NCBI GenBank assembly: GCA_938743325.2
Contig: OW568886.1
Coordinates: 496,001-560,000, forward strand
Source of the DNA: Pycnococcus provasolii
Lineage: Eukaryota; Chlorophyta; Pseudoscourfieldiophyceae; Pseudoscourfieldiales; Pycnococcaceae
Direction: 5' to 3'
Length of the DNA: 64,000 nucleotides
The translations under genes were made by a program, and so were the position numbers. Shown here piece by piece: positions 14,626 through 61,594 of the stretch (the first letter of the stretch is position 1; the number at the start of each line of letters is the position of its first letter). The notes beneath the pieces are model-generated. The model ran no database searches and was not told the origin of the DNA. It worked only from the letters and a program-made list of their open reading frames with translations.

Positions 14626-14657
<32 letters not shown>

Positions 14658-22642: not shown

Positions 22643-23592
22643 ATGCCATCATCGACGAAAGGCCTGCTGCCTTTTGGTTTGTGCACCCTCGAGGGCTCCC
22701 ACCGCTTTCAGCAAGTCGCCCCGAGCTCGACCTCGCACCGCAAACGTGCACGCTCAACCTGTGTCTCGATGGCGACGCGACGGCCCTCATCGGCGATGGC
22801 CGTGCATGTCAGTGGTGTCAGGCCGGTTGTTCCCCTGTGGTTCTCTCGGCCGTTCTCCAGACTCGCGCCTCTCTTGATTGCACTCGCGATATCTACGCGA
22901 TATCAAGGCGCGAACGCACAGCCGACGCGCACCGGGTGGTACATGCTCGCAAGGCAAAACAACCTCGACAGCGACGTGCTGCGACCGTGGACGCACGGCG
23001 TGAGCGACTTGAACACGGATAACGTCGACGCGCGCGAGTACTCCATACTGTCGCAACGGGCCAACTACGTCAACCCGGGCGACGGACGGTACGAGTTCGC
23101 GCTCTACTGGCCGCAGCTGAGAGGCTCGGCACTGCCGTCGTACGTGCAATGGAAGCAGGCGAGCGACCCGTTCGGATCACTCGACGTCGACGGCAAGGTG
23201 AGCGACTTCCAGCTCAGCGACGAAAGCCTCGGCGCAGGCTTTGACGAAGGGTTTCGTGGTCTCGCGTCGGACACGACGTGGGCCACGCTGTCTGACGGCT
23301 ACCCAGGAGGTCTCTGGTACTTCTCGTTCGGATACGTCAGAGAAGCGTGGTGGGCGCTGACGTTCGGGGAAGGAAGCTGGCTCGGGCCGTACTTCAAGTC
23401 CGACCTGCCGCAGAACAACCCGTGCACCGGCCAGACGATACGCGGCTGTGGCGTTCGAGCGACGGAGCTGTGGGTGCACTACGACGCCAGCGGCGCGACG
23501 GAATTTGCCAAGTTCCTTGAGCCTGGGCCTCCCCCGCCGCCCGTGCCGTCCATCCCGCCACCTGGAACACCACAGCCTCCGACGCCACCGTC

Positions 23593-23623
<31 letters not shown>

Positions 23624-26116
23624 TCTCCACGGCCGCCGCCGTCTCCGCCGCCGTCTCCGCCACCTCTTCCGCCGCCACCGCCGCCACCCATACTGCCGCC
23701 GTCTCCGCCACCGCCGTCTCCGCCGTCTCCGCCGCCGCCGTCTCCGCCACCCCCGCTTCGCCCCAGCCCACCATCTCCACCTCCACCCCCTTCACCACCA
23801 CAACCGCCAAAGTCGCCGTACCCAGCCTTCCCGCCGCGCGCGCCTCAGCCTCCGCCTCCGCCGACGTGGCCGTCGCCGCCCGTGCCTCCTCCTCCTCCCC
23901 CTCCTCCGCCGCCGCCCAGCCCGCCGCCTCCACCACCGCCACCTCCACCGCCGTTTCCGAATCCACCGCCGCCGAGTCCACCGCCAACTCCTCCTCCTTC
24001 GCCGCCTACCGAGCCAATCCCACCGCCCCCGCCTTCGCCACCTCGGCCGCCATCTTCGCCGCTGGCTCCTTTGTCCCCTCCCCCGTCACCTCCTCCACCC
24101 CGGCCGCCCCTGAAGTCTCCACCTCCACCATACGCACCTCTGCAAAAGCCGTCGAAAGGTGGTGGCGCCGTTTACCCTCCCACGCCTCCGTCGCCTTTCC
24201 CGCCGCCTTCTCCGCCTTCCCCGCCCTCTCCGGCCCTACCGTCACCACCCCTTTCGCCAATGCCACCGCCATTTATCAGCACAGATCGACGCGTGACGTC
24301 GGAGGTGCTCGCGAGATCAACCGCGATCGCGGCGTATGTCGCGGTAGCGGGCTCAGCCGTGGTGCACGCTGCACTGGCGTGGGTGCCATCGCAGGCATCA
24401 GCCGCGGCGAGTGCTGCGAATGGCCCACTGGCGGGCATCGGGGCGACAAATCTGCTGATGCACGTGCAGTCCGTCGCCGCAGGAGCGTACCTGTTCCGTG
24501 CAGGCGCCGACCGATTCATTCCCGTGGAGGCGGTCGAGGGATACCGCGCCTTTGCTGAGGCTACGCTCGTAGCCACGAAGGTACCCGCGTCTGGAGAAGA
24601 GACGCGGCGTCGACGAAAGCTCGAAGGCACCTCCGATCACGGTGTGGCGACACAGTTGGAGAGTCGCGCGGTTCTGGTGCACCGCGCCATGTTCTGGACC
24701 GTACTTACATTTTTTGTGGTGGCAATTATTCGCGTCGCGCTTTCGCTGACGCAGCACCTAGATTCGGGAACGATCATGGACTACCACACTGGCGAGGTGG
24801 TGGATTCCCCCGACGATACGACACCAATCGCCACGCTCTTCCCACGTTTCGAATTTGCCGCTGCGATTGCGCTGTCGCCACCATGCATGCTCGCAGCGTG
24901 CGCGTACTGGTCTGAGGGTGGCGGCAAGTCCGAGGCTGGCGGCGTGACGGTGTTTTGTGCGTTTATGATCACGCTGCTTCCACTTGTCACGTCGCTGATC
25001 CTGGGAATTGTCGCGGTGCTGAGTCGATCTCGATGCGCATTCCACGTGCTCGAAAGTGCTGCTCCCCAAGCATCAAACCCGGCGTCTCCCGGATTGGCAT
25101 TTGCCGAGAAGATTGCTGGATCGCCCGCACCGTACACGTCGGGTAAGCTTGAGACGATGTCTCCCTTGCGCAGCGCAGCGCTCGCGGCGCAGGTGCAGGA
25201 CAATGAGGCGTTATTGGCACAAAACGGGCTCACGAAGACGCACTTTTTTGCGAGCGACTTTGGCACGGCACCAGACTTGGTGGAGTTCCTTCTCTCCTCG
25301 CGCGTCGAAGGCTACTGGGAGACGTCGTTTGGCGTCGACGATGTCATGAACGACCCCGAGTCGCAGCAAGCGACGGATAAGAAACCCATGCGATTTGTGG
25401 AGAGGTTCGGCTTCGTGTTCGACAGCCTTCGCGGTCCGCAGCCTGAGCACATTACAGAAGACTGCTTCGACCACCGCATGTTCATTCCCGCGGTATTCTT
25501 CCTTCGTATTCTTGCGTGCGCCTGCTGCGGCGCGGCGGGCGCCGCAGACACGGGCGATGGCGCGCGTGCCGCCGCGGGCGCGTACCTGGCATTCGCGTTG
25601 CACCTTGTCGTGGTCATTCTGCTGGTGGCTATGCAACCTTTGGTGACGCGTCGTGCGATGACGTTCCGCTTCCTTTCGGAGGTTCCTCTGTGTATTGGGT
25701 ACTTGTGCCTTGGCCGCCACTTCGACCTGGAGGGATTCCGCGACGGCGAGATGAGCAGCAGTCTGAATGCCGCGGCGATCTTCCACATGATCAGCATCTT
25801 AACGCTTGTTCTCTACACCGTGATTGAGACGGTTCGCGGCGTGGCTGTTCTGATGCTCGAGTGGAGGGAGAGGGTTATTCTGGATCGCCTGGCGACTCGC
25901 ATTCAGCTTACCATAAAGGAACAGAAGGCTGTCTCAGTGGCTGACAATGCTCCGTTCGAGCAGTCAGATGGAAGGTTCGCGTTTGGCGTGTACGCGACGC
26001 CACCTGCGAAACCGGACACTTATGGCCGTCAGCCGACTCGAGGGAGCTTTTTGGGTATGGGTGGTGGCGCTGGCGCTGGCGCTGGCGGAGGTGAAACGGA
26101 GACGTTCCAATTTTGA
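22643..26116 (+). CDS. Large secreted/membrane protein: N-terminal ectodomain, hydroxyproline-rich rod, multi-span C-terminus
   Basis: Up to 1157 residues. ATGs at 22643, 22769 and 22796 are in frame; the signal-like segment LAPLLIALAISTRYQGANAQ fits a start at either of the two later ones. After it comes a roughly 200-residue ectodomain rich in Trp/Tyr/Gly (GGLWYFSFGYVREAWW, TELWVHYD) that I do not recognise. Residues about 294-545 are Pro/Ser repeats (SPPPPSPPPP), the hallmark of green-algal wall glycoproteins. The last 600 residues hold at least seven hydrophobic spans. Likely links the extracellular matrix to the plasma membrane; the arrangement with a polytopic tail is uncommon. The C-terminus ends in Gly/Ala repeats. 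Confidence 0.75.
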
Positions 26117-27635: not shown

Positions 27636-28541
27636 ATGGCTGTCATCTTATCCACTCGTGCTCCCTCTGCTCGTGGTGCTCGTGGTGTTTCATCTGCTCG
27701 TGCTCTTGTTTCTTCTGCTCGTGCTCGTGGCGTTTCTTCGTCTGGTCGTGCTCGTCGTTCTTTGGTTACGTTTGCGCGTTCGAACGAGGCGTATAGTAAA
27801 GCATGGGAACACGCCTCCGTCATTTCCAACGCGCGTCAAGGTGGCTTGCTGCAGACCATCAACCGCACGAAGGCGGTGAGAATGATCGAAGGTGGTGGCG
27901 AGGACAACTCCGGCACGCCCACGCCAATAATCGTCGACGTGCGCAGGGAGTCGCACGTGACGCGCGCGCCCATCGACGAGTTTCAAGACAACACGACGAA
28001 CGTACCCATACACAGCGAACGCGTCTTCGACGTCCTCAAGACGTGGAGCAGCCACGCGAACCTCAGGGACTTTCTGCTCTACTGGCCCACGGGAACGCTC
28101 GTCAACTACGCGTTCGTCGACGAAGTGCTCGAACTCACGAACCAGGATAAAAATACACCCGTCATACTCGTGTGCAACTACGGAGGAAACACGACGAGCG
28201 GGCCCACGTCAAGCCTGCACGGCGCCGCAATGCTCCTCGACGCGGGATTCAACTCAATCTACGTCCTGCACGGCGGGGCGTTTGCCACGAACGACCCGAA
28301 AGAGCGCGTCAAAAAACTCACCGCACTCATGAACGGCGGCGGCATCACGGGGAAAAAGGGCTCGATTCTGCCAAAGCCTCTCTTGGCGTTTTTCGAGGAG
28401 TACAAGGAGTACCACCAGTGGCCGCGTCTCCTTCTGCTCGTCTCCGTCTGGTACGCCATGTTTTACCCGGCAGCGGCAAAACTTGCTCTCACCGTTCCCG
28501 CTGGTGTTCAGATGAAATTCACTGGGCTGTTGAACTTTTGA
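27636..28541 (+). CDS. Rhodanese-domain protein, probably plastid-targeted
   Basis: 301 residues from the ATG at 27636, chosen because the following 45 residues are Ser/Ala/Arg-rich without acidic residues, as in plastid transit peptides. The rhodanese fold follows: IIVDVRRESHV, and the active-site strand VILVCNYGGNTTSG with the cysteine in place but a longer loop than the usual CxxGxR, then AAMLLDAGF and VLHGGAFA. A hydrophobic segment (RLLLLVSVWYAMFYPAA) near the C-terminus suggests membrane association. Plant relatives sit in thylakoid or envelope membranes. Sulfurtransferase activity is uncertain given the altered loop. Confidence 0.8.
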   Translation: MAVILSTRAPSARGARGVSSARALVSSARARGVSSSGRARRSLVTFARSNEAYSKAWEHASVISNARQGGLLQTINRTKAVRMIEGGGEDNSGTPTPIIVDVRRESHVTRAPIDEFQDNTTNVPIHSERVFDVLKTWSSHANLRDFLLYWPTGTLVNYAFVDEVLELTNQDKNTPVILVCNYGGNTTSGPTSSLHGAAMLLDAGFNSIYVLHGGAFATNDPKERVKKLTALMNGGGITGKKGSILPKPLLAFFEEYKEYHQWPRLLLLVSVWYAMFYPAAAKLALTVPAGVQMKFTGLLNF

Positions 28542-28697
28542 TTTTACCTTTCCAATGCAAATTTTTTGTATAATCCTTCTAACGATTATTTCTTTTTTGT
28601 GTAACCGTAATCATTCATCATTCCGTCAAACGGTTGGCCATTCACAACCACATCACTTCGTACCACATGACGGGTCAAGGGTTAGTTAAAATTTTGA

Positions 28698-30578
28698 TTA
28701 CAAAATCTTCTCCGCGCCGTTCCAGTCGACGTCGACACCCTGCCACTTCGTCTCAAGCACAAACTCGAGAGGCGGTACCGCCTCACGCCCGTGGTCGGCG
28801 AAGCGTGCGCGCTCCTCCGCAGTCCGTCCGATGCGCTGCGTGTGCCCTCCCGTGGGGCTTGGACTTAGTGTGAGCCGAAGCAGACGATCCTGGCGATGCA
28901 ACCCGTCGTAGTAAAGCAGGTCGCCCGCAAACGACGCACCGGCACGTCGAGGCTCGGCAAGGCCAAAGAGAACGGAGAAGTGGCTCTCTGAGCAGATCAC
29001 CCACGTTGGCGTCGACGGGCACTTCAGGCGCTTTCCCACCTCGTGGCTGCCGTACCACTCGAACAGCGTGAGAAGGCCGACGTCGCCGCCGCTCGGCACG
29101 CCACGCATCCTCATGCCGCCGACATCCATGTCGCCGTCGAAGACGTTCGACACGCACCGACCAAGCGTCAGCAGGTTGACTAGGTCCTGCGTGCAATATC
29201 CGTGCATTGCCAGCAGACTATTCGTCGGCTCGTCCATCTCGCCGCGGCATGTCGCAACGCCGCGCGTCAGCACGGCGCTGAGCAGGAACTGCACCATGCC
29301 AAATCCATCCTTGGACGTCCAAGCGGGCAGGCACGAGCGTTCGAGCTCACGCGCCACCTCCGCACGACTTGACGCAGGCACCCGCGTGACGTGCGCCGAG
29401 CGTAGCATGGTGTCGAAGCTGACAGAGCCTGAAGCCGCGACGAGCGCGACGGTCGTCGATGCACCATCCGCGGTGGCGGCGGCGACGAGAGCGTCGGCAA
29501 GCGCGTCGCGAAGCAGGCTTCGTGCAGATCTCGGGTCGCACGTCGCGCGCACGAACGCGTCGACGCTCGAAGGTGCGTGCGTCCTGTACGCGTTGGCTAC
29601 CATGCGCGCCTGCACGGACGCGAGCAGGCCGCATGGCCCGCCTTTATCTTGCACGAGCCCAAACTGCTGATCGGCCATTGGCGGTGGGTTGAAGTAGAAG
29701 CCCTGCTTCCAGCTATCCGGCGGCGTGCCGAAGCACACAGCGAAGCACAGCTCGCGGCACTCGCGCGCCTCGCTCGGGCTCAAGGAACCTCCACTGCCGC
29801 CACCCGCGCCGCCGCCAAAGCCGCCGAAGTTGGGCGAAGGCGCGGTACCCGGTCTTGTCAAGTCACCCACGACGCGCCTGGCACCTCGTGGCACCATCTT
29901 CGGCGCGAGCGAGAAGTTTGACAACTCGTCTTCCATATCCTCCATCGCCCAGCTCTCGGTCGTCTGCTTCAGCTGAGCGGGGCTGCCGGCCAGACCACCG
30001 CCTCGCCGGGACACGGGTGCTCGAGGCGCGGACAGTTCCTCGATGACAGGGTCTTCGTCGTCGTCTTCGTCGTCGTATTCGTTTCGGCTCTGCGGGGCGG
30101 GTGGCTTTTTGGTGGGCGCCGCCGCCGGCTTAGGTTCTGTGTATTCGTCGTCGCGCATCGCCGTCGGCGCCGCAGGTTGTGCGAAACCCGGTCGCGCCGC
30201 CGAACGCGGGTTCGGCGGCGGCCAGATTTCGGCGGGTGGGTTCGTTTCGGAGGATGTCGCATTCTCTGACCCCCCCGCCGCCGCCGCCGCCGCCGCCGCC
30301 GTCCCACCAGCCTTGCGCAGATACTCCGAGACGATGATGTGGAGCGTTGACGGCAGGCTTACGCTCGGGTCCGCCTGTTGTTTTTTGTACTTGAGAATCA
30401 CCTTCTCGAGTCCGAGCGACTTGCGCAGGACGTTCCTGTTTGTGACAGAGGAGGGTGACCGCGGCGCCTCCAGCTCAAACGACGCGAGCGTATTCCCGTA
30501 GCGCACGGGGTCTTTCGCGAGAAACTCGCGCACCAGAGCCTCGACCAAAGCATGGCTCTGAGCAGACATTATTGCCAT
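28698..30578 (-). CDS. MINDY-type deubiquitinase (MINDY-3/4-like)
   Basis: 626 residues from the ATG at 30578 (another at 30569). The N-terminal 90 residues form a helical LisH-like segment, followed by disordered sequence (poly-Ala, Arg/Pro-rich, Gly-rich), then the catalytic domain. That domain has QFGLVQDKGGPCGLLASVQA with the Gln and nucleophilic Cys near residue 315, and CSESHFSVLFGLAEP with the catalytic His near residue 531. MINDY enzymes trim Lys48-linked ubiquitin chains. All key residues are present, so an active enzyme is expected. Head-to-tail with the SPX-EXS gene. Confidence 0.88.
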   Translation of the reverse strand: MAIMSAQSHALVEALVREFLAKDPVRYGNTLASFELEAPRSPSSVTNRNVLRKSLGLEKVILKYKKQQADPSVSLPSTLHIIVSEYLRKAGGTAAAAAAAAGGSENATSSETNPPAEIWPPPNPRSAARPGFAQPAAPTAMRDDEYTEPKPAAAPTKKPPAPQSRNEYDDEDDDEDPVIEELSAPRAPVSRRGGGLAGSPAQLKQTTESWAMEDMEDELSNFSLAPKMVPRGARRVVGDLTRPGTAPSPNFGGFGGGAGGGSGGSLSPSEARECRELCFAVCFGTPPDSWKQGFYFNPPPMADQQFGLVQDKGGPCGLLASVQARMVANAYRTHAPSSVDAFVRATCDPRSARSLLRDALADALVAAATADGASTTVALVAASGSVSFDTMLRSAHVTRVPASSRAEVARELERSCLPAWTSKDGFGMVQFLLSAVLTRGVATCRGEMDEPTNSLLAMHGYCTQDLVNLLTLGRCVSNVFDGDMDVGGMRMRGVPSGGDVGLLTLFEWYGSHEVGKRLKCPSTPTWVICSESHFSVLFGLAEPRRAGASFAGDLLYYDGLHRQDRLLRLTLSPSPTGGHTQRIGRTAEERARFADHGREAVPPLEFVLETKWQGVDVDWNGAEKIL

Positions 30579-31037
30579 GGGAAGCGAGAAGGGGGAGCGG
30601 AAAGAACAGGCGGGAAGGGAAGGGAAGGCAACTGGCCCCCAGGAGGGTCTTAGGGCTAGGAAGTACACGACTGTATTATAATTTTATGAGGCCGCAAGTG
30701 CAAGTCCTTAAGCAACCACACACAGGATTAAATGATGATTTGGTCAAACCACCTACCCTAAGAAGTACCGTAGGAAGTAGTTGGTCAAAGCAAGCAAGTC
30801 CTTAATCCATTTCAGGTTATAATGGCCTTTAAAGCCCTTGCAAGGGTCCTCCATGGCAAGTCACCTCACCTAAGGTTAGGGGGGCGGCCGGGCTGCGGGG
30901 GGTCCCGGGAAAGTTTAAGGTTACCGCTGCCCTCATCACTCATCAGAGGTCCCGTCACGACCCTACCCGGTACCCCCGCGGGTAGGCTATGTATCGTCCG
31001 TTTTTAGTTTGACTACTGTATGTTACACTGTAGCACG
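30579..31037. promoter_or_regulatory. Intergenic region upstream of the MINDY gene
   Basis: 459 bp covering the MINDY promoter and the 3' flank of the SPX-EXS gene. No gene seen. It has one TACCCGGTA element at 30964-30972, followed at once by a related inverted GGGTAGG, and a short CCTAAG-type repeat around 30760-30880. Confidence 0.45.
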
Positions 31038-33518
31038 TTACACTTCGGTTTTCAACGCCGTGATGAACATCTCCGTGTGGAGTATGCCCTGCTCGACGGA
31101 ACTCGCGTTCAGGTTCGCATACTCCTCGGACGGACGCCGCGAGCCCGAATCACGCGCAGTGGGAGGAGAAGCGCGAGGCGTGAGGCCACCTTGAACCTGC
31201 TCAAAGTGCTCACGAGGAGCGCTCGACGACGGGCCGCCGCGCAATATCAGCTCCGTCTCGTGGCAGTTGCTGCTGTGCTCGTTTTCCACGCGAAAGATGT
31301 TCCACATAGATCGACGCGCCACCTCGAGCGCCGCAAGCACCGTTACCATTCCCTGTGCGCCGAGCTGGTCGATATGGGCCGCCGGAACTACCGCCCAAAC
31401 CCATGTCGCACGTAGAATTGCATTCGCCACCGCCGCGGCAACGCGCCATTTCGCCGTGATCAGGCGCTTGCGCTCGTCCACCTGCACGGTGCACTTCGAA
31501 ACATCCACGCGAATGATGGCCCAGTCCATGGCAAGATCCCACGTGAGGGCGTAACAAGCATACGCGGCGACGATGCAATGCGCAACTGGCCACGGAATGT
31601 AACCCGTCTCGGCAGCAATCAGCCTCGCGATGATGGCGAAGATGGAAAACGCGTACTTACCCGTGTTCACCAAGTGAGACGATCGCCACCACCGCTGGAG
31701 CCCACTACTGTCGTCGTCTTTGTACTGCGCCCGTCTTATCGCCGACCACCAGTCATTGTGACGACGAAGGCATTGCATGACGCGGATGTAGCTTGGGAGC
31801 AATCCAGCCGCCGCTCTCAGGATACGCGAGTCTGGCGTGGCGAAGAAGAGGATCGCGCAATCTGCGAGAGCGGTGCTCTGGCTCGTGAGCTGATCTGCCA
31901 CGAAGAAGTCTGGAAAAGTCACCAACGTCAGGGGCGCCGTTATCAGCCTCACAATGTGCTGGCAGAGGAAGTGACGTGTCTGCACGGGTGGGATCACCCA
32001 AGTGTACTTTTCAAGCCATCGCGGCAGCGGGAAAAGAGTGCCGACGAGCAAGACGATGAGGAACGGGCGCAGCCAGTCAGTGCTCACGACGCCGGGAAAT
32101 GCGACCACGACGAGAAGCACGAGCGTGATGGTAGTCCACAGGACACCCGCGCAAAACGCAATCTGCGATGCGAGGAGGTCGTCGCTCGACGAGTTGCTTC
32201 CGTAGAAGATGAGCGACCAATTGACGCGAAGCCGCTCCCAAATCAGGACGGAGCCGCTGTACATGAGCGCATGAAAGGCTGGCAGGGCGAGCCCACGCAG
32301 CATGACGAGCGTCTCCGAAACGTGCGAGTTGCCGGCAAAGTCCGAGCGCGTGAGCATGCCCACCATCCAGAAGACCCACAGCGGGACGGACATGCCAAGA
32401 ACGAAGCCGCTGCCGAAGACGCTGCCTCCCACCTTGCTCGCGCGGTAGCGCCGGTTCTCAATCACGCGTCCTCCCTTATGCAACTCAGCGAGCAGCTGCT
32501 TGCGCACAATGAGATTATGCGTTGCATCGTCGTCGCCTTCGTCGAGCGCGGTATTCAGTTCCACGTACATGTCATCTAAGGCTCGTCTCGCGTCGTCATT
32601 TTTGGAGATGCCGCGTGCACTCCACGGCCAAAATCGCAGTTTCTCGGCATTTGTGCAGTACATTTCGCACACCGTGCTGCTGCCCGTCACCTTGTCATAC
32701 TTTTTCGCAATCTTTCGAATCGCCTCGGCGTTCAGTTCGCGGAAGTCTTTGAGCATCACCACCTGCGCAAAGAGTTCTCGCGCATGTTCCAGGCACGCCC
32801 TCACGCGCTGCTCTGGCGTCAGTCCCAGTCCTCGGTGTGACTTCTGGTACACTCCGTTGTGTATCATCTCCGAGACTCTCATGCTTCCTCTTCGAAGTGC
32901 TGCACGAGTTGGCGCATCGTTAGCCTGGCTTTCCTGTTGCCTCAGCTCTGCACACGCGCTCGCCGCCTCGGCTCGCAGTTGGTCGAGGCGCTCGCCTTGT
33001 TCGAGGTCGTGTCTCTCGAAGAATGCGTTGCACTTGTTCACCTCTCCATCAAGCAGTACGAAGAAGCGCGCCTGTGCGTTCGTGCGTCGATTTGACGACG
33101 TGATCTTGGTCGCGGCAAGCCGCCATCGCTGCGTCTCGTCATTGGTTTCGTCCTGGTTATCGCTGTCGGACGTTGCGTTTCTGTGCTGTCGTTCGTTCGT
33201 GGCTGCAACTTCCGTGTTTATGGTCGCAACGTCGCCGACTTCTCTGGGCAAGTTGATTCGCACGCATATGTTTGCGTCTTCGTGAAAGAAGGGCGCGTCT
33301 TCGTCGGGCGAGCTCAGCGCGTCCGCGTCGTCGGAGGCGAATCCCTCGTTGTCTTGTGCATACGATCCGTTTCTCGGCCGGCTTTGTGTTGCCGCCGCCG
33401 CGGCCCACGGGAAGTTGTCGAGGTCGTGCAGCGCTTGTTTGAGTTTGTGGTAGTCGACGTACGCGGCTTCCCACTCGGGGACGGTGCGTTGTCGCATGCG
33501 AGAGCCGAACGCCACCAT
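31038..33518 (-). CDS. SPX-EXS phosphate exporter (XPR1/PHO1/SYG1 family)
   Basis: 826 residues from the ATG at 33518, chosen because SPX domains begin near the N-terminus and RTVPEWEAAYVDYHKLKQAL follows at once. The SPX domain is split by an acidic, disordered insert and ends with the basic helix IRKIAKKYDKVTG that binds inositol pyrophosphates in relatives. The EXS half has several membrane spans and conserved blocks: RWLEKYTWVIPP, SYIRVMQCLRR, GKYAFSIFAIIARL, TWDLAMDWAI and RRSMWNIFRVENEH. Known role: export of inorganic phosphate from the cytosol, gated by inositol pyrophosphates. Complete, with no missing key blocks that I can see. Confidence 0.93.
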   Translation of the reverse strand: MVAFGSRMRQRTVPEWEAAYVDYHKLKQALHDLDNFPWAAAAATQSRPRNGSYAQDNEGFASDDADALSSPDEDAPFFHEDANICVRINLPREVGDVATINTEVAATNERQHRNATSDSDNQDETNDETQRWRLAATKITSSNRRTNAQARFFVLLDGEVNKCNAFFERHDLEQGERLDQLRAEAASACAELRQQESQANDAPTRAALRRGSMRVSEMIHNGVYQKSHRGLGLTPEQRVRACLEHARELFAQVVMLKDFRELNAEAIRKIAKKYDKVTGSSTVCEMYCTNAEKLRFWPWSARGISKNDDARRALDDMYVELNTALDEGDDDATHNLIVRKQLLAELHKGGRVIENRRYRASKVGGSVFGSGFVLGMSVPLWVFWMVGMLTRSDFAGNSHVSETLVMLRGLALPAFHALMYSGSVLIWERLRVNWSLIFYGSNSSSDDLLASQIAFCAGVLWTTITLVLLVVVAFPGVVSTDWLRPFLIVLLVGTLFPLPRWLEKYTWVIPPVQTRHFLCQHIVRLITAPLTLVTFPDFFVADQLTSQSTALADCAILFFATPDSRILRAAAGLLPSYIRVMQCLRRHNDWWSAIRRAQYKDDDSSGLQRWWRSSHLVNTGKYAFSIFAIIARLIAAETGYIPWPVAHCIVAAYACYALTWDLAMDWAIIRVDVSKCTVQVDERKRLITAKWRVAAAVANAILRATWVWAVVPAAHIDQLGAQGMVTVLAALEVARRSMWNIFRVENEHSSNCHETELILRGGPSSSAPREHFEQVQGGLTPRASPPTARDSGSRRPSEEYANLNASSVEQGILHTEMFITALKTEV

Positions 33519-48186: not shown

Positions 48187-49560
48187 TTACTCGATGCCAA
48201 GTTCCTTGGCATTTACGATAGATGGCGCAGCCTTGGGAACCTCCGCAATGGGCATATCCAAGAATGGCGTGATGTCCTGCTTGTTCCAGACAGGGTATCC
48301 GTTGACGAGAGCAGCAACGTTCTGTGCGGCGAGCGTCGCCATTCCTCCACGCGTGTACAACGACGCGGACGCGATGTGCGGCACGATGACGGCATTTGGG
48401 CAGTCTGCGAGTCCCGGCTTCATGAGCGGCTCATCCTCGAACACGTCAAGGCCGCACATGAACGTGGGATTATCCTTGAGATGTTTGACGAGAGCCACCT
48501 CGTCAATGACCGGACCGCGTGCGGCGTTGACGAGCACCGCCGTGTCCTTCATCATGTTGAGGCGCGCCTCGTTCATGAGGTGGCGCGTGTTGTCGTCGAG
48601 CAGGCAGTGAAGCGACACGACATCGCACTGAGGAAGGAGCTCTTCGACCGACTCCGCGCGTCGCCACTTTATGGGCTCGTCACCCTGGCTTTCGAGAAAC
48701 TTTCCGTACCCGTCGAGGTACTTCTCGAATGCCGGCTGTGGGAATGGGTCGTAGTACACGAGGTCCATCTTGTGCCCCTCGACGAGCATCTTCGCGTACG
48801 CCTGCCCGATACGCCCGGCTCCGACGATGCCAACCGTCTTGCGCTGCAGCAGGTGTCCGACGAACAGCGTTGGAAGCCACCCTTCGTACTTGCCTGCGCG
48901 CATGAAGACGTCCGCCTCGACGACGCGTCGTGCGGCTGCTAGCGTGAGTGCCGCGGCAAGCTCGGCGGTAGTCTCTGTGAGAACACCCGGCGTGTTGCCT
49001 ACGGGTATGCCTCGCTCGGTGGCGCTGGGAACGTGCACGTTGTTGTATCCGACGGCGTAGTTGCTCATGCCTTTTCCGCCCGCTTGTTTGAGCGCCTCGA
49101 ACAGTTCGTGGTTCCAGTTTTCCGTTAGTTGTCCTAGTACTCCGTCGCACTTGTGTCCAATGAGGCTGACAATTTGTTCGTTGGAGAGTATGACGTCAGG
49201 CGACGTGCACACCTCCACGCGGCAGTCTGCGGCGACGAGGAGCTGCATCCACCTTTCTCCAGGCAAGTTTTTCGTGACGAGCACGCGGTGTTTTCCCGCC
49301 GGGTTGTGAACTTCCACGGGAGGTACTGCAGCTGATGACGAGGAGGAGGAGGAGGAGGACGCTGCTGCAGAGGCGGCTGACGAGGAGAATGACGATGACG
49401 ACGACGACGACGAAGTAGAAGATGGAGACAGGGACGACAGAAGGGTAGCAGGAGCTGCTGAGGGTAATAAGAGCCCCCCCAAGCACTTAAATCTCCTGGA
49501 GCTGTATTGTTGTGCTGCTCCTGCTGCTCCTCTTAGAGACTTGAAAAGCAGAGAAGCCAT
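48187..49560 (-). CDS. HPR1: Hydroxypyruvate reductase (D-2-hydroxyacid dehydrogenase), photorespiratory
   Basis: 457 residues from the ATG at 49560, the first in the frame. A leader of about 80 residues ends in a Ser/Ala-rich tract. The enzyme follows the plant HPR1 pattern: VLVTKNLPGERW, SNYAVGYNNV, the NAD site GIVGAGRIGQAYAKML, catalytic Arg (VNAARGPVIDE), Glu (DVFEDEP) and His (VPHIASASLYTR). Role: reduces hydroxypyruvate to D-glycerate. The C-terminus (AKELGIE) lacks the peroxisomal SKL-type signal of land-plant HPR1, so with the leader a mitochondrial or plastid site is inferred. Divergent from serine:glyoxylate aminotransferase. The 5' leader has a (GGAAA)n tract at 49584-49610. Confidence 0.93.
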   Translation of the reverse strand: MASLLFKSLRGAAGAAQQYSSRRFKCLGGLLLPSAAPATLLSSLSPSSTSSSSSSSSFSSSAASAAASSSSSSSSSAAVPPVEVHNPAGKHRVLVTKNLPGERWMQLLVAADCRVEVCTSPDVILSNEQIVSLIGHKCDGVLGQLTENWNHELFEALKQAGGKGMSNYAVGYNNVHVPSATERGIPVGNTPGVLTETTAELAAALTLAAARRVVEADVFMRAGKYEGWLPTLFVGHLLQRKTVGIVGAGRIGQAYAKMLVEGHKMDLVYYDPFPQPAFEKYLDGYGKFLESQGDEPIKWRRAESVEELLPQCDVVSLHCLLDDNTRHLMNEARLNMMKDTAVLVNAARGPVIDEVALVKHLKDNPTFMCGLDVFEDEPLMKPGLADCPNAVIVPHIASASLYTRGGMATLAAQNVAALVNGYPVWNKQDITPFLDMPIAEVPKAAPSIVNAKELGIE

Positions 49561-50420
49561 GGGACGGATCAATAAAGCTGGTAAAGGAAAGGAAAGGAAA
49601 GGAAAGGAAAGAGAGAGAGATAGCAAGGATAGATAAGAAACAGGCGACGGATACGGAGAGATAGAGTGCCAGCGTGGACGGACCAGGGTCAGAGGGATTC
49701 CCCACTCGAGAGGGGTGTTTGCTGTTACGGAAATGAACCAAGGAGGGATCCCGCATCCCAGGTTTCTAAGTTAGATTCGAGGGGGGAAATTGGGGATGTT
49801 GATTTGCAATTTGTTTTCGAGGGGAGGGGAGGCAAGCAAGCTCGGACTACTTCCTACTCCAAGGCTTGCGGCTGAGAGCGGGGCTGGCATATCATTTCTG
49901 ATTTCTCCGAGCCTTTCTGCTCAGACTACAATCCCAGGCACCACGCGTCCTCCGTGGCAGAACTCAACCGAGAAATCAACCGAGAAGAAGAAGAGAAGTC
50001 TCAAGAGAAATCAACAACTCTTTGGGTTTCTTTGCGCGTGTTCCTCCGCGTGATCCCGTGAGGCTCGTCGTGAAGCTCGTGAAGCCTAACCCTCGGGAAG
50101 CTTGAGTTGGATTCGATTCTAGCTAGAGGTCCGTTGGATTTGACCTGCAGTATTCTATCAGGTGAGCCGGTGAGGCTCGTGCCCCTTCCTTGGTGTATCT
50201 TGTGCCCCTTCCCTTCCAGCTCAGCACGCAGAAGGCCGACCTCCTCCTGCTGCTCCTCCTCCTGCTCCTCCTGCTCGTTCCTTCCGACCTCCTCTTCAGT
50301 GCAGTCCTCACCTTCCCAGTACCTCGTATTCGTGTTCGTATTCTGCTCCACGCGTCCACTCCGCGTCTCCATAAGCCTTCCTCTCCTCACTCCGTCCGTC
50401 TGAGGGTGTATCTCAGCTCT
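49561..50420. promoter_or_regulatory. Shared divergent promoter of the HPR and SGAT genes, with probable SGAT leader intron
   Basis: 860 bp without another gene. On the HPR side lies the (GGAAA)n tract. On the SGAT side a probable 5'-UTR intron runs from ATCAG|GTGAGC at 50161 to TCTCAG at 50416, only four bases before the ATG. Repeats of GTGAGGCTCGT occur near 50058-50070 and 50170-50180. A common control region for two sequential photorespiratory enzymes is inferred from the arrangement. Confidence 0.6.
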
Positions 50421-51929
50421 ATGTCATCCGTGCTCTACACCGCGATGTGGCGCCCGCTCGTCAACAACTCCAACGCACTGCTGACGAGTGTTGCGGCGAA
50501 TAACTGCCGCTACCACTTTCCATCCGTTGCCGCGCTCTCGACGCGCACATTCGCATCGTCCTCGGCATCCTCCTCCTCAGCTGCATCCTCCTCCTCATCT
50601 GCTGCTTCTGCTGCTGCTGCTTCCTCATCCTCGTCAGCTGGTGCAGCCTCGGAGTACCTGTGCCCGGAATTCTCGTACACGCCGCCGGGGAAGCACCACC
50701 TCTTCGTGCCCGGCCCGACGAACATCCCGGACAGCGTGCAGCGCGAAATGCACCGAGCATCGCTCAACCACCGCGACCCGTTCTTCAAAACGGTCACCTA
50801 CCAGGCACTCAACGACGTCAAGTACCTCTTCAAGACGCACCAAGGACAGCCGTACGTCTTCCCAGGAACGGGAACGGGTGCGTGGGAGGCGGGGTTCACC
50901 AACACGCTCTCCGCGGGAGACAAGGTCATCATGTTCCGCTACGGGCAGTTCAGCCACCTGTGGGTGGACATGGCGCAGCGCCTCGGACTGAACGTCATCT
51001 GCCTCGAGGAACCGTGGGGCAACGGCGCCGACGAGGCGAAACTCGAGCAAGTCCTGAAGGAGCACCCCGACACGAAGGCTGTCTGCGTCGTGCACAACGA
51101 AACGACCACGGGCGTGACCAGCGACCTGCCAGCGTGCCGTGCTGCCATGGATCGCGCCGGATCCGACGCCCTGCTCATGGTTGACGGCGTGTCCAGCATT
51201 GGTGCTTGCGAATTCAAGATGGACGAGTGGGGCGTGGACATCGCCGTCACCGGATCCCAGAAAGCGCTCAGCCTTCCCACGGGCCTTGCGCTCGTCTGCG
51301 CCAGCCCCAAGGCGAAGAGCAAGCTCGCTTCGTCAAACCTGAAGAAGGTGTACTACAGCTTCGAGGACATGGACAAGTTCAACGCCGTCGGCGGATTCCC
51401 GTACACGCCATCCATCCCTCTGCTGTATGGCCTCATTGAGGCGATGCGCCTCATCAAGGAGGAGGGCCTCGACAACGTCATCGCACGCCACGCACGATTT
51501 GCGGAGGGAACGCGTGCGGCTGCCAAGGCTTGGGGCTTGGAGACGCTCTGCACACAACCGAGGTGGCACTCAAACAGCCTGACGGTGCTCAAGGCTCCGC
51601 CGGAAATTACGGACACGTCGGATTTCGTCACGTACATGTACTGCAAGTACAACGTTTCCCTCGGCCTCGGACTCAGCGAGGTGCAGGGTAAGGTGTTCCG
51701 CATTGGGCACCTAGGGTCGATGGACGAGGTGAGCCTGCTCGGCGCGATTGCCGCCACGGAGATGGGACTTCGCGACTACGGCGCGCTCAAGAACGTGTCG
51801 AATGGCGCGGGCGTTGGCGCCGCGCTCGACTACTTCCGCCGCACGGCGAGGATGATTCCGACGCGCGACCACGTTGTGCATGATCCGATGATCCAAGACA
51901 ATCAGACGCCGATGACGGCAAGTGGCTAA
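50421..51929 (+). CDS. Serine:glyoxylate aminotransferase (alanine-glyoxylate type), photorespiratory
   Basis: 502 residues from the ATG at 50421. A presequence (MWRPLVNNSNALLTSVAANN) and a Ser/Ala-rich tract precede the class-V aminotransferase domain. The domain has HHLFVPGPTNIPDSVQREMH, GTGTGAWEAGFTNTL, the PLP-lysine region VTGSQKALSLPTGLALV (Lys near residue 281), QPRWHSNSLTVLKAP, and the C-terminal RIGHLGSMDEVSLLGAIAA. Role: converts serine plus glyoxylate to hydroxypyruvate plus glycine. The end (MTASG) is not the SRI/SKL peroxisome signal of land plants, so mitochondrial or plastid targeting by the leader is inferred. Head-to-head with HPR, which uses its product. Confidence 0.94.
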   Translation: MSSVLYTAMWRPLVNNSNALLTSVAANNCRYHFPSVAALSTRTFASSSASSSSAASSSSSAASAAAASSSSSAGAASEYLCPEFSYTPPGKHHLFVPGPTNIPDSVQREMHRASLNHRDPFFKTVTYQALNDVKYLFKTHQGQPYVFPGTGTGAWEAGFTNTLSAGDKVIMFRYGQFSHLWVDMAQRLGLNVICLEEPWGNGADEAKLEQVLKEHPDTKAVCVVHNETTTGVTSDLPACRAAMDRAGSDALLMVDGVSSIGACEFKMDEWGVDIAVTGSQKALSLPTGLALVCASPKAKSKLASSNLKKVYYSFEDMDKFNAVGGFPYTPSIPLLYGLIEAMRLIKEEGLDNVIARHARFAEGTRAAAKAWGLETLCTQPRWHSNSLTVLKAPPEITDTSDFVTYMYCKYNVSLGLGLSEVQGKVFRIGHLGSMDEVSLLGAIAATEMGLRDYGALKNVSNGAGVGAALDYFRRTARMIPTRDHVVHDPMIQDNQTPMTASG

Positions 51930-52235
51930 GTGCACATCTTCTCTCTAAGAAATCTCCGAGGGACTTTGGAAGAAAATACAAAAACAAACAAACAAAATAA
52001 GCAAAATTCCGTGTGATTGCTCACCCTTGTGTTTTGCGTATTTGCTAGGATAGAGAGGAAAAAGAAAAAAAAGTAGGGAGAGGAGAGAGAAGAATCAGGC
52101 TGAAAAACAAATAATTCCTTTTCCGATGTTGTGGTTTTACGGCGTGTGCGCCCTTTGTTGTTTCATTTGGTAACCAAAAATAATATCTTCTTTGCTTTAC
52201 AACGAAAAAACAACAACAAATAATTCATCTTACAA
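51930..52235. other. Convergent intergenic region, AT-rich
   Basis: 306 bp between the SGAT stop and the TPR-zinc gene stop. A-rich runs (AAACAAACAAACAAAATAAG, GAAAAAGAAAAAAAAG) probably form the 3' UTRs. Nothing else seen. Confidence 0.5.
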
Positions 52236-54284
52236 TCATATCGTCGCTCCCGAAGCATCGTACGCCTCCTGCTCCAGGTTTCTTCCACGATCGGAGAATG
52301 CACGCGCACTGTCGCGCATCGCTCGTCGCGCGGCATCCTTCCATGCGCCCATATCCTCAGCCTCGCCATCAACCACTTCCTCGAATCCCACGTGCGCCAG
52401 CGCCGCGCGCATGCCAGAGCTCGTCACGTCGTGCCTCGCGATGCCATCTTGCCACGCGCTCAGCCACGAGCGCATACTCGCGTGTGCGTCGTTCGGCTTG
52501 CCGCACCTGCGGCAGAAGAGAACAGACGTGTCGTTCCCGTGGGTCATGTTCGATCCAAACGGCTTCCAGCGTTCTTGCCTGCAGTACCCGATGCACTCGA
52601 CATGCTCTTCGTGACGCACCGAACAGTCGCCGCCGCCGCCGCCGTCACGAGTAAGCTGCGCGAAGTACGCCTGACCAGCCTCACCGGCGCCCTGCGACCA
52701 TCTCCCACCCCACTCGGTGCCGAACACGTCCTCCGTCATAAACAGGTCGCGTGCCGTGGACGCGGCGATGTCGCTCGACGATATCACCTGGGCCTTCTGC
52801 TGATCGTTGTTTTTGCTACCACGCTGCGTGTCCTCGCGCTGCTTGCGCACCTGCGCCGCGGCAGCGCCATCGTCCACCACCTTGATGTCAGAAACCGGTG
52901 CACCCATTTCCTCGCCGGTGTTCGGGTTCACGCCGGCATACACGCCGTCAATCTGCGGCTTCGCCTCCTTCGTGCCCGGCCTTCGCGGCGGAGGCGGATC
53001 CTCGTCGTTGTAGTATCCGCAGTCCTCGTGGCTCGTGTGCAAGCAGCCGCACACCTCGCAGTTCAGCACGGTCGTGTCCGACCAGTTGCGCATCGTCTGC
53101 ACGTCGCGCTTCCACATCGTGCACGCACAGTCGCGGCACGCTCCGCGAAGTCGCGAGAAGATGTCGACGTGCACGCTTCGCCCGCGGTCGTACACCGGCT
53201 TGTCTAACTCGTTCGTCGCACCCGTCGATCGCTTCCAGCGAGCGACGCATTCGCGCCGGTGACGACGCTGCGCCGTGCGCTCTTCGTCCCACTGTCGCAG
53301 TGCCGCTTCGTAGTCCGCCCACTCGTTAGCCTCTCGCTGTGGCCGCTCTTGAATCTCGCGCAGGCGACGCTCCTCCTCCGCACGCTTGAGAGCCGCTTGT
53401 TTCGCCTCGTACCTCTCGTGGCTTCCGCCCTGCTCGGTGGCATACTCGCGATTTTCCCTGTAGTCGTCGCGCGACGGGTCAATTTCGATCGCTCTTCCGT
53501 AAGCAGCCACAGCCTCGTCGAACTGCTTGAGGCAGATGTGCGCGCGCGCCTTTCGCGCCCACAGCTTGGGCCATTCCGGATCGTACCTCAGCGCGCGGTC
53601 GGCGTCGCAGAGCGACTCCTTGTTCCTTCCGAGTCGCGCGTACGCCGCGGACCTGTTGCTGAGCGCCTTGGCATCGTCGGGGAGCGCGTTCACCGCCTGC
53701 GTGTACTTTTCGAGCGCCGCCTTGTACCTCGGCGGCGTTGCGTTGTAGTGCTCGTTTCCCTCCAAACGGTACCCTAGGCTTCTTTCGTGCGCCGGCTTTC
53801 TCCTGTGAATCGCCATCTGAGCCAGGTGGCTGGACACGGTCGTGGTGGTATTTCTCGTTGGCTTTAGCGTGGTTTTATCCGTAGCGCGCGTGATGCTGAC
53901 GGACGCGTGTCCTTTGACAAGTACGGAGTGCCCTCTTTGTATCCACGGTATGTCAGCGATGGGCATGTCGTCGGGTATTTTTGCCGTTTGCTGTGCGTCG
54001 TGTGTTCCCCCGGACGTTCCGTCCCACGACGGCCACTCTTGCCTCGTGGTTTTGACGTTCGTCGCGAGTTCGAATTCCCTCTTGAGGTCTCTGAAGCACG
54101 CCTTGGCTGCGTCCATGTCGAGCACGTACGCGTTTCCCTGCCATCTCACGGCGACTTCTTTGGTTTTGACGGCGGAGTCGAGTGCTGCGAATAGGTTACT
54201 GCAGTTGACTTTTTTCAAAGGTCGCATGACAAAAGAGGACCCTGGGGCTGAGGAGGAGGTGTCACCATTTTCCATCAGAGACAT
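52236..54284 (-). CDS. TPR protein with two copies of an unrecognised Cys/His module
   Basis: 682 residues from the ATG at 54284. Residues about 160-275 form a TPR block (EGNEHYNATPPRYKAALEKY, LSNRSAAYARLGRNKESLCD, EIDPSRDDY) like those in SPAG1/RPAP3-type co-chaperones. A charged helix follows. The C-terminal half holds two similar Cys/His modules: near 376-415 (CRDCACTMWK, SDTTVLNCEVCGCLHTSH) and near 557-600 (CIGYCRQERWK, NDTSVLFCRRCGKPNDAH). Each pairs an early Cys cluster and Trp with DT[TS]VLxCxxCG and a late His, as for a zinc site. I do not recognise the module. The gene sits inside the photorespiration block, head-to-head with glycerate kinase. Confidence 0.75.
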   Translation of the reverse strand: MSLMENGDTSSSAPGSSFVMRPLKKVNCSNLFAALDSAVKTKEVAVRWQGNAYVLDMDAAKACFRDLKREFELATNVKTTRQEWPSWDGTSGGTHDAQQTAKIPDDMPIADIPWIQRGHSVLVKGHASVSITRATDKTTLKPTRNTTTTVSSHLAQMAIHRRKPAHERSLGYRLEGNEHYNATPPRYKAALEKYTQAVNALPDDAKALSNRSAAYARLGRNKESLCDADRALRYDPEWPKLWARKARAHICLKQFDEAVAAYGRAIEIDPSRDDYRENREYATEQGGSHERYEAKQAALKRAEEERRLREIQERPQREANEWADYEAALRQWDEERTAQRRHRRECVARWKRSTGATNELDKPVYDRGRSVHVDIFSRLRGACRDCACTMWKRDVQTMRNWSDTTVLNCEVCGCLHTSHEDCGYYNDEDPPPPRRPGTKEAKPQIDGVYAGVNPNTGEEMGAPVSDIKVVDDGAAAAQVRKQREDTQRGSKNNDQQKAQVISSSDIAASTARDLFMTEDVFGTEWGGRWSQGAGEAGQAYFAQLTRDGGGGGDCSVRHEEHVECIGYCRQERWKPFGSNMTHGNDTSVLFCRRCGKPNDAHASMRSWLSAWQDGIARHDVTSSGMRAALAHVGFEEVVDGEAEDMGAWKDAARRAMRDSARAFSDRGRNLEQEAYDASGATI

Positions 54285-54713
54285 CGCTATTAGACTATTA
54301 GCTGTAATTTCTAGATAAAAGTTATGTACCAGCCTACTACTGTAATAACGAGTATGTCAAAGTGCACTACTGTAGTGAATGAGCGTTACTTCTTCTTCGA
54401 GGTAATAACGACACACGCCATGAATGGAGCTCTGGATGTGCTCTGGGAATGTTCCAAAATACCAAATACGTTACGGAAACCTTCACGGAATACGGTAGAT
54501 GGTTCGTAACCCCTAATTGATTGAATGATTGATTAGGGGTTACGAATCGCGTTAGGGTTTAGTGGTAGGGTTCGGAAAATCATCAGAAAATCTTTGTTCC
54601 ATCTTTTTCTCCGTTTTGTTTTTCTTTCGTTCGTTCCAGTTCCCGTTCCCGTTGAAGTGTTCCACTCTGTGTTCCACGTCAGACGAGACTTGGACGGGTT
54701 TTGAGGAATCGCC
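54285..54713. promoter_or_regulatory. Divergent promoter of the TPR-zinc and glycerate kinase genes, with perfect inverted repeat
   Basis: 429 bp, AT-rich on the left. It contains the 15-bp inverted repeat at 54503-54546, followed by GTTAGGGTTTAG and GGTAGGG (54551-54570), which are telo-box-like. A pyrimidine-rich leader with GTTCCCGTTCCCGTT (54636-54652) runs to the glycerate kinase ATG. Confidence 0.6.
54503..54546. repeat. Perfect 15-bp inverted repeat, 14-nt loop
   Basis: Left arm TTCGTAACCCCTAAT at 54503-54517 and right arm ATTAGGGGTTACGAA at 54532-54546 are exact complements, with loop TGATTGAATGATTG. The arms contain a CCCCTAA telomere-like core. It could be a dimeric factor site or a hairpin. 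Confidence 0.95.
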
Positions 54714-55781
54714 ATGGCAGGCGACAACGCCAATGATACCCTTCTCAGCGTCTTCTCGTCGTCGCCGCTCGCACCTGCATCTGCATCTGCTCTCCCCTCC
54801 GTTGACGTCTCGTCGTCGCGACTGCTTTCACTGGCTTCGCGGTGTGCTTCTCACTTGAACCTCGGAACCTCGGGTCCCTCCCCCTCCCTCGCTTCGCTCT
54901 CGTCAGCAGAACGGAACCGGCTTTTGGCGTACTACGTACCCGTGTACCTGTGGTGCGAAAACCTACGCGAGGAAATAATCAAGCAAAAGAAGATGAAGGA
55001 AGCAGAAAACGACAGCACGCCAACGCTCGTCGTCGGTGTGTCCGCGCCGCAGGGATGTGGGAAAACAACACTCGTCGAGGAACTCGCGCGGCTCTTTCGT
55101 GACGACGGAGTCAACTGCTGCAACGTCTCGCTCGACGACTTCTACCTGCGAGGGGAACAGCAGGACGAACTTGCCGCCAAACACCCGGAGAACTCGCTGC
55201 TGCAGTTTCGGGGAAACTTTGGAAGTCACGACCCTGACTTGGGCATAAGGACCATAGACGCGCTGCGGCAGGCTTCCAAGGGAGACGTCGTAAAGCTGCC
55301 GCGCTACGACAAGGCACTCAGAGGTGGAAGAGGAGATCGGGCACCAGAAAGCACGTGGCCTCAGGTGACTGGTCCCGTCGACGTCGTTCTCCTCGAGGGA
55401 TGGAGCCTCGGCTTCACGCCAGTGGGAGAGGAGCGGGCTGTATCCGACGGTGGTCCGGAGCTTGCGCAGGTGGACAAGTACCTCAACGAAATGCCTTACG
55501 GCGACCTGCACGAACGTTGCGACGGGTGGATCGTCGTGCAAATTGAAGATCCGAAGGTGGTGTTCGAGTGGAGGCTGCAGCAAGAGGTGGCGCTGCGAAA
55601 GGTGAAGGGCGACGAGAATTGCTTGACCGACGAACAGGTGTCGGACTTTGTCGACCGCTTCATGCCCGCGTACAAGGGTTACCTATCAGGCTTGTACGCC
55701 AACGGGCCGCACCGCGCCAACGGACGGCCGACGCTCGCATTTTACGTCGACGCAAATAGGACTCCCTTCGCAAGCCCCTGA
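54714..55781 (+). CDS. GLYK: D-glycerate 3-kinase
   Basis: 355 residues from the ATG at 54714. After a Ser/Ala/Leu-rich N-terminus comes the kinase: P-loop GVSAPQGCGKTTLVEELARL near residue 108, VSLDDFYLRGEQQDEL, FRGNFGSHDPDLGI, VKLPRYDKALRGGRGDRA, VDVVLLEGWSLGF, and FVDRFMPAYKGYLSGLY. It matches plant GLYK along its length. Role: phosphorylates D-glycerate to 3-phosphoglycerate, the last step of photorespiration, in chloroplasts. The N-terminus begins with acidic residues (MAGDNAND), unusual for a transit peptide, so plastid import is not certain from sequence. It lies about 2.8 kb from serine:glyoxylate aminotransferase. Confidence 0.93.
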   Translation: MAGDNANDTLLSVFSSSPLAPASASALPSVDVSSSRLLSLASRCASHLNLGTSGPSPSLASLSSAERNRLLAYYVPVYLWCENLREEIIKQKKMKEAENDSTPTLVVGVSAPQGCGKTTLVEELARLFRDDGVNCCNVSLDDFYLRGEQQDELAAKHPENSLLQFRGNFGSHDPDLGIRTIDALRQASKGDVVKLPRYDKALRGGRGDRAPESTWPQVTGPVDVVLLEGWSLGFTPVGEERAVSDGGPELAQVDKYLNEMPYGDLHERCDGWIVVQIEDPKVVFEWRLQQEVALRKVKGDENCLTDEQVSDFVDRFMPAYKGYLSGLYANGPHRANGRPTLAFYVDANRTPFASP

Positions 55782-60262: not shown

Positions 60263-61594
60263 TTAGAAAGAAATGGCATCCACAGACTCGTCCTCCTCCA
60301 GCTGCGTCTGCGGCTCCACGCCCTGCTCATTCGCGAAGAGGTTCTTCAGGTTGACGAACGATAGGCGAGACACGTCGCGAAGCACCAAGTCCGCCGACCC
60401 TAGCTCGTACGTCGGCTGACACGGTCCCGGAACCACGACGCACTTCATGCCCGCGTCGTGCGCGCCTTCGATGTGCGCGTTGCTCGTTCCGAACACCACG
60501 CAGCGCACGGGCGGCCTTTCGATGAGCGTGCTTGCATAGTTGTACAGGTCGAGCCTGTCGTAGAAGTCCTCCGCGGCAACGAGGTGCTCGGAGAGGTGCT
60601 CGACTCCCGCGGCGGCGAGCGCGCTCTGCACGTCAGCGCGTGGGCGCGTGGAGGCGACGCACACGGGTGCGTCCGCCTCGTGCAGTGTGTTGAGGAATTC
60701 CACCATGCCAGGCTGAAGCACGTCCACCTTGTCAGCCTGAAGGTTCCTGAATATGTTCTCCTTGACTTCGGACATGCGACGCACGGCGCTGGGCTCGCGC
60801 GCCCAGTGAAAGACTTCGCTCACGGCGACGTCGTTGCGCGCGTTCACCGCGCGGTCGAGCTGAAATTTGAGCGGCGGCGTCTTTCCTAGTTCCTCCGCCG
60901 CCATGAGCCACGCGGTTCGCTGGTCCGCCTCCTTGTTGGATAGCAGCACGCCGTCGAGTTCGACGACGGCGCCGAGCCACGCGGTTCCGAGCCGGTTGAG
61001 TCTCTGCAGAGGGTTGGCGAGCGAGGGATCGTCCGCGACGTTCTCGAGTATGCGCTGCTGCTGCTGCTGCTGCTGCTGCTGCGTCGACGACGACGTGGAC
61101 GTGGACGGCGGCTCAGGTACGGATGCCGAGCTTCTGTCCGGCTGCTGCGCGTACTGCAGACTTGATTGTCTCTGGTACGCGACGGTGAGGTTGGGTATGA
61201 AGCTGTTGTTTGGGCTTGACGAAGACGGCCCTGTATTTTGTGAGGCGTGTTCGAAGTACCTCGCTGGCGTGGTGATGACTCTGCTTATGTTTCTTCTTCT
61301 TGAAGATCGCACGGCACTTAGCGAGCGCGCGACCCACGACGAGTTGAACTGTTGCGAGATTTGAGAATGAGCTCCAGACGAAGATGACGACAGTTTTAAA
61401 TCAGCAGCAGCAGGAGGAGGAACCACCCCATTAACCACCAAGTTTGAAGATGGACGCACCCGAGAGGACACACCCCCAAGAGAAGGAGCAACCCCACACC
61501 CACCGCCAAGACCTGAAGTGTGCCCTGAAGAGGCGTGTGGTCCAGGATGCCGCTTCCATGTCGTGAACGTTGGAGGAGTCATTGTCGTGAGCAT
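60263..61594 (-). CDS. PyrP2-like HAD phosphatase of riboflavin synthesis
   Basis: 443 residues from the ATG at 61594. A leader of about 200 residues, rich in Ser/Gly/Gln with ten Gln in a row encoded by CTG repeats (61046-61081), could hold a transit peptide. The HAD domain follows plant PyrP2: TAWLGAVVELDGVLL, EVFHWAREPSAVRRM, VCVASTRPRADVQSAL, VVFGTSNAHIEGAHDAGMKC and TYELGSADLVLRD. Plant PyrP2 dephosphorylates 5-amino-6-(5-phosphoribitylamino)uracil in plastids. Motif I, normally DxDG, reads ELDG, so the first Asp (nucleophile) is Glu. From memory plant PyrP2 also deviates here, so this may be a family trait. Confidence 0.83.
   Translation of the reverse strand: MLTTMTPPTFTTWKRHPGPHASSGHTSGLGGGCGVAPSLGGVSSRVRPSSNLVVNGVVPPPAAADLKLSSSSSGAHSQISQQFNSSWVARSLSAVRSSRRRNISRVITTPARYFEHASQNTGPSSSSPNNSFIPNLTVAYQRQSSLQYAQQPDRSSASVPEPPSTSTSSSTQQQQQQQQQRILENVADDPSLANPLQRLNRLGTAWLGAVVELDGVLLSNKEADQRTAWLMAAEELGKTPPLKFQLDRAVNARNDVAVSEVFHWAREPSAVRRMSEVKENIFRNLQADKVDVLQPGMVEFLNTLHEADAPVCVASTRPRADVQSALAAAGVEHLSEHLVAAEDFYDRLDLYNYASTLIERPPVRCVVFGTSNAHIEGAHDAGMKCVVVPGPCQPTYELGSADLVLRDVSRLSFVNLKNLFANEQGVEPQTQLEEDESVDAISF

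Follow-up and report, generated by a model that had tools for sequence, protein, structure and literature searches.

Linked photorespiratory genes in the green alga Pycnococcus provasolii: a three-gene locus and a candidate second trio

Three genes encoding photorespiratory enzymes, hydroxypyruvate reductase (HPR), serine:glyoxylate aminotransferase (SGAT) and D-glycerate 3-kinase (GLYK), lie together within 7.6 kb of the nuclear genome of the green alga Pycnococcus provasolii. Their products catalyze consecutive steps, from serine through hydroxypyruvate and glycerate to 3-phosphoglycerate. The locus occupies positions 48187-55781 of a 64-kb stretch, here called the window, which spans positions 496001-560000 of contig C26 (616,396 bases) in a genome of 32,333,900 bases and 46 contigs. 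A directed search of the genome for other photorespiratory families uncovered a second trio outside the window, at C31:22037-31171 (9.1 kb), which makes the case for clustering stronger than it would be from the window alone. We consider it probable that the window trio is a genuine eukaryotic gene cluster, inherited vertically, with its linkage most likely kept by joint switching of the genes at low CO2 and by co-inheritance. Gene clusters of central metabolism are uncommon in eukaryotes.

Results

The window trio was identified from protein families, homologues and solved relatives, all of which bear out an initial first-pass annotation of three successive-step enzymes separated by a single other gene. 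HPR (48187-49560, reverse strand) has 457 residues counted from the first ATG at 49560 of an open reading frame (ORF) that spans 48187-49626. It matches 2-Hacid_dh_C (E 9.7e-48), carries the motifs GAGRIG, AARGPVIDE, DVFEDEP and PHIAS, and is 69% identical to Chlamydomonas CHLRE_06g295450 with 84% of the query covered; together with its tree, these matches mark it as a plant/green-algal-type enzyme. SGAT (forward strand, 502 residues, ATG at 50421 and stop at 51929) has the expected domain and the motif GSQKAL, and its top solved relative is a serine--glyoxylate aminotransferase (6pk1, E 1.1e-129). A protein labelled Pycnococcus provasolii has the same starting methionine and 98% identity to SGAT, in agreement with the earlier view that the host is an alga. 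GLYK (54714-55781, forward strand, 355 residues) is named from its homologues, a family scan, the motif GCGKTT and its top solved relative, a D-glycerate-3-kinase (7xpc, E 3.5e-79); its Pfam PRK match is barely above the cut-off (22.5 against 22 bits). Prokaryotic NCBIfam models all scored below their cut-offs on HPR and SGAT, the best being glyoxylate reductase (243.7 against 455 bits) and BhcA (468.2 against 650), and so the names of these two proteins rest on green-algal and plant relatives. Each of the three coding sequences is a single, intact open frame. A search of the genome, in which just the top candidates receive scores, turned up no further close copy of any of them: by score, HPR is followed by a match of 35% identity, SGAT by one of 29%, and GLYK by none.

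The genes alternate in strand, in the order HPR (-), SGAT (+), a TPR gene (-) and GLYK (+). HPR and SGAT diverge from an 860-bp interval, measured ATG to ATG (49561-50420), which by its position is a candidate shared promoter. The sole intervening gene (52236-54284, reverse strand) encodes a TPR-repeat protein of unassigned role and is separated from the divergent GLYK by 429 bp, ATG to ATG (54285-54713). It had been described as a TPR-zinc gene; the family scan detected the TPR repeats and matched no zinc-domain family. The locus thus brings three unrelated genes of a single pathway into close proximity, with one gene between, as expected of a eukaryotic metabolic gene cluster.

The window contains no N, and the published assembly ucPycProv1.2 (strain CCAP190/2) is described as built from 444-fold HiFi and Hi-C data with a quality value (QV) of 58.2 (PMC11130579). 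For these reasons an assembly join or chimera within 48-56 kb, raised earlier as something that would undo the finding, is scarcely credible; we saw none and take the gene order as real.

How far does the linkage extend beyond Pycnococcus? Each protein cluster was labelled by its longest contig, so linkage here means the same contig and carries no distances, and we left out agreements among short contigs (1,354, 1,416 and 1,445 bases). Eight named chlorophytes had both HPR and SGAT among the best 120 rows. A single contig carries both genes in Micractinium conductrix (552,609 bases) and Chlorella sorokiniana (4,101,822 bases), a shared contig of 4.1 Mb being weak evidence. They lie on separate contigs in the other six: Chlamydomonas reinhardtii, Myrmecia bisecta, Bryopsis sp. 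KO-2023, Raphidocelis subcapitata (where the contigs are short), Astrephomene gubernaculifera and Pedinophyceae sp. YPF-701. One further source, whose HPR groups with Nannochloris (84/81), has both genes on a contig of 323,881 bases; it was noticed only through the agreement itself and so has no denominator. GLYK accompanies HPR in none of five other species, namely Micractinium, C. sorokiniana, Parachlorella kessleri, Botryococcus (by scaffold names) and Chlamydomonas (Table 2 of PMC8320531). At the level of contigs, linkage in relatives, the check that had been proposed for this locus, is seen for HPR with SGAT in some species and for GLYK with HPR in none. Chlamydomonas gene identifiers rise by about 50 per gene. 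By their identifiers, Chlamydomonas SGAT, HPR1 and GLYK belong to chromosomes 1, 6 and 12, and on chromosome 6 SHMT2 (g293950), AGT1 (g294650) and HPR1 (g295450) have near identifiers (PMC8320531), which hints at an older, looser linkage, possibly a remnant.

The second trio, on C31, comprises two aminotransferase genes on the reverse strand and a dehydrogenase-like gene on the forward strand. The first (AAT; 22037-23692, L027:8037-9692) belongs to the alanine-aminotransferase family, with a solved alanine aminotransferase as relative (3tcm, E 5.7e-179), and has no other close copy in the genome (next match 31%); this family includes the plant glutamate:glyoxylate aminotransferase. The second (AGT-like; 24276-25595, L028:276-1595) is the second class-V aminotransferase, for which the top solved relative is a putative serine-pyruvate aminotransferase (3ke3, E 3.5e-113), with no Pfam match at E 0.001. 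The third (GYD-like; 27827-31171, L028:3827-7171) encodes a glycolate-dehydrogenase-like protein of 1114 residues with FAD_binding_4, FAD-oxidase_C and Fer4_8 domains and a GlpC-like end, and is one of four FAD-oxidase_C matches in the genome. Its fusion of FAD, Fe-S and GlpC-like domains is the layout of the Chlamydomonas glycolate dehydrogenase GYD1, a protein of about 1100 residues. Against a firm glycolate-dehydrogenase name, its best match among solved structures is a probable D-lactate dehydrogenase (E 9.4e-20), with a glycolate oxidase chain next (1.1e-15), and the GlcD and YdiJ models fall far below their cut-offs. By family, all three enzymes are candidates for the route from glycolate through glyoxylate to glycine. 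Between the AGT-like and dehydrogenase genes lies a 214-residue ORF (L028:2333-2977, reverse strand) with no Pfam or NCBIfam match; by eye it resembles the end of a tyrosine recombinase, and a mobile element may have inserted within this trio.

Could two such trios arise by chance? We distributed 14, 18 or 22 loci of the pathway randomly over 10,000, 12,000 or 15,000 gene slots, a gene number guessed from 26 hand-picked ORFs of the window, and counted as a trio any three pathway loci in five consecutive genes. The probability of at least one trio is 1.1e-4 to 9.5e-4, a figure that needs a discount for the many other pathways that might have been noticed, since the first trio was picked post hoc. 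Two disjoint trios have a probability of about 5e-9 to 4e-7 by an analytic estimate from this simple, optimistic model, and they appeared in at most one of 2 million simulated draws in each of the nine settings. The joint figure is optimistic also because the C31 aminotransferases were assigned to the pathway by family after their location was seen. Under random placement, the linkage of pathway genes exceeds chance, and two trios by chance are very unlikely.

The HPR tree (28 rows, root drawn at the midpoint) places the window protein with two relatives (100/99) and then with Pyramimonas (92/86), inside a 24-row set that holds all the green algae (100/97). This fits vertical inheritance of HPR among green algae. 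Among the best 120 rows for each of the other proteins, the named rows for SGAT are almost only green algae and those for GLYK are algae and land plants. Outside the green-algal set stand a row labelled Deltaproteobacteria, together with two other rows, and a long-branch row from a Thermoleophilia metagenome-assembled genome (MAG). Both are plant-like HPRs, the former a MAG protein (P0117) of 65% identity and the latter of 57% identity (L050:3569-4678); in each case this may be a true bacterial relative or a misbinned contig. The scan of bacterial contigs used six short peptides, too narrow a probe to show absence in bacteria. Near the one confirmed bacterial HPR locus (57%), 14.7 kb of sequence held no relatives of SGAT, GLYK or the C31 trio. 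An SGAT scan of viral contigs gave five stretches that fit the pattern, none of them a relative.

Where might these enzymes act? The first 60 residues contain no acidic residues in HPR, SGAT and the GYD-like protein, one in AAT and two in AGT, along with some Arg/Lys. Ser/Ala-rich stretches follow the leader in HPR, SGAT, AGT and the GYD-like protein, not in AAT, and by eye these suit mitochondrial presequences. From their leaders, HPR and SGAT are predicted to be mitochondrial. In Chlamydomonas, glycolate is reported to be oxidized in mitochondria by a dehydrogenase, and HPR1 to be mitochondrial and NADH-dependent (PMC8320531, PMC8264790, PMC12174325). GLYK has an acidic N-terminus (Asp at 4 and 8) and, by eye, lacks a clear chloroplast transit peptide, so that there may be an upstream exon or the enzyme may be cytosolic. 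Of the six clustered enzymes, then, five probably work in a single mitochondrial route, with GLYK performing the final step outside it.

When nine upstream regions were set against 200 sets drawn at random from the remaining non-coding stretches, no shared promoter word emerged. Three eight-mers occurred in four of the nine regions and no ten-mer in three or more, and the photorespiratory set had fewer common words than the null. Because the null was drawn with replacement from just 28 stretches, its sharing is inflated and the test is weak.

Other families of the pathway are dispersed in the genome family search, which covered the phosphatase, the P, T and H proteins of glycine decarboxylase (GDC), serine hydroxymethyltransferase (SHMT) and the LrgB family. 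Phosphoglycolate phosphatase matches (PGP_euk above cut-off) are on C1 and C19; GDC-P is on C27, GDC-H on C35, and GDC-T has a strong match on C3, with weak matches on C31 and C4. There are three SHMT genes, one on C7 and two on C17, the latter pair (179971-181377 and 211567-213399) about 30 kb apart. Two LrgB-family genes, on C11 and C37, belong to the family of the plastid glycolate/glycerate carrier. Two strong FMN_dh genes were provisionally not accepted as glycolate oxidases, since GOX-like proteins of chlorophytes are reported to oxidize lactate (PMC7020209).

Closer to the window trio, no extra pathway genes were obvious within 30 kb on each side of the window when open frames of at least 200 residues were read by eye over their N-terminal 130 residues, with no library scan. 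An S-formylglutathione hydrolase gene, a one-carbon enzyme with an NCBIfam equivalog match above the cut-off, lies about 34 kb from the cluster (window 13769-14659, forward strand). A HAD-like gene at 60263-61594 was rejected as a phosphoglycolate phosphatase (PGP_bact 29.5 against a cut-off of 180).

Discussion

What keeps these genes together? We propose that HPR and SGAT share their divergent promoter, that neighboring genes would be switched jointly as CO2 falls, and that a common chromatin environment may be a further reason for the linkage. Co-inheritance would avoid the build-up of reactive intermediates and could be the target of selection. The C26 trio would supply the last three steps of photorespiration, and the C31 trio candidates for the earlier ones, from glycolate through glyoxylate to glycine. 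We put forward only tentatively the fuller proposal that these are two pathway-ordered clusters (C31 from glycolate to glycine, C26 from serine to 3-phosphoglycerate), co-induced at low CO2 and partly inherited from the chlorophyte ancestor.

Several observations weigh against this proposal, and some of them favor a neutral origin, in which the trio is coincidental, perhaps an old accidental adjacency of HPR and SGAT that GLYK joined by chance, with no common regulation. GLYK is linked to HPR only in Pycnococcus among the species compared, HPR and SGAT are themselves apart in most of the named species, the unrelated TPR gene splits the trio, no common promoter word emerged, the other pathway families searched are dispersed, and the trio was chosen post hoc. 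Moreover, Chlamydomonas AAT1, GLYK, GDH, HPR1, SGAT1 and GDC genes show CO2- and CIA5-dependent expression (PMC8320531); since these genes are co-regulated from different chromosomes, linkage is unnecessary for co-regulation. Neutral linkage has to contend with the low chance probabilities given above, for one trio and above all for two, and with the finding of the second trio through a directed search of the same pathway. We regard it as the less likely reading.

The trio might instead derive from the transfer of a bacterial operon, such as one of serine-cycle genes, that subsequently fragmented. In bacteria, gene sets for the serine cycle combine these three activities in neighboring genes, and relatives of HPR do occur in records labelled as bacterial MAGs. 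However, in the tree, made for HPR only, the window protein sits within the green-algal set with the bacterial-labelled rows outside it, and the alternating strands leave no co-transcribed layout. Together these make a transferred operon, which the first-pass annotation had already argued against, very improbable, and the one bacterial locus lacking relatives of SGAT, GLYK and the C31 trio in 14.7 kb points the same way. A vertically inherited cluster remains the reading we prefer.

If both trios are co-regulated, Pycnococcus would provide a simple setting in which to study what leads a pathway in constant demand to cluster, be it reactive intermediates, shared promoters or co-inheritance, and whether linkage of photorespiration genes was the starting state in green algae. 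Both loci offer defined gene sets whose expression could be followed as CO2 and O2 are shifted.

The first-pass annotation knew of no such linkage in land plants or model algae, a statement that does not hold. Picochlorum was reported in 2016 to have a photorespiration cluster, which a 2020 comparison of ten green-algal genomes recaptured (Foflonker et al. 2016; Foflonker and Blaby-Haas 2020, PMC7826186). The functional clusters of Picochlorum SENEW3 are said to include photorespiration, and some clusters there are co-expressed under salinity stress (PMC12198440). Our locus resembles that cluster in bringing photorespiration genes together in the nuclear genome of a green alga, a likeness of kind that may or may not extend to members such as HPR, SGAT, GLYK or the C31 trio. 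The ten genomes of the comparison, as listed, do not include Pycnococcus (PMC7826186). A literature search over titles and abstract openings, with most subscription papers out of reach, returned no account of these Pycnococcus loci or of a glycolate-dehydrogenase trio. Photorespiration clustering as a kind is thus already known; what seems to be new is the arrangement in two trios, the presence of GLYK and the finding of such linkage in Pycnococcus, subject to which genes the Picochlorum cluster contains.

Other known systems place the locus further. Like the nitrate-assimilation clusters of green algae, it groups primary-metabolism genes in a nuclear genome (PMC7826186), but it serves another pathway, the nitrate cluster being described as a transporter with reductases (PMC12198440). 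Pycnococcus shares with Chlamydomonas reinhardtii the same photorespiratory enzyme set, whereas SGAT, HPR1 and GLYK are there assigned to chromosomes 1, 6 and 12 (PMC8320531). Finally, unlike the serine-cycle gene sets of bacteria, the Pycnococcus locus alternates its strands and accommodates an unrelated gene, and its HPR belongs with the green algae and not with those sets.

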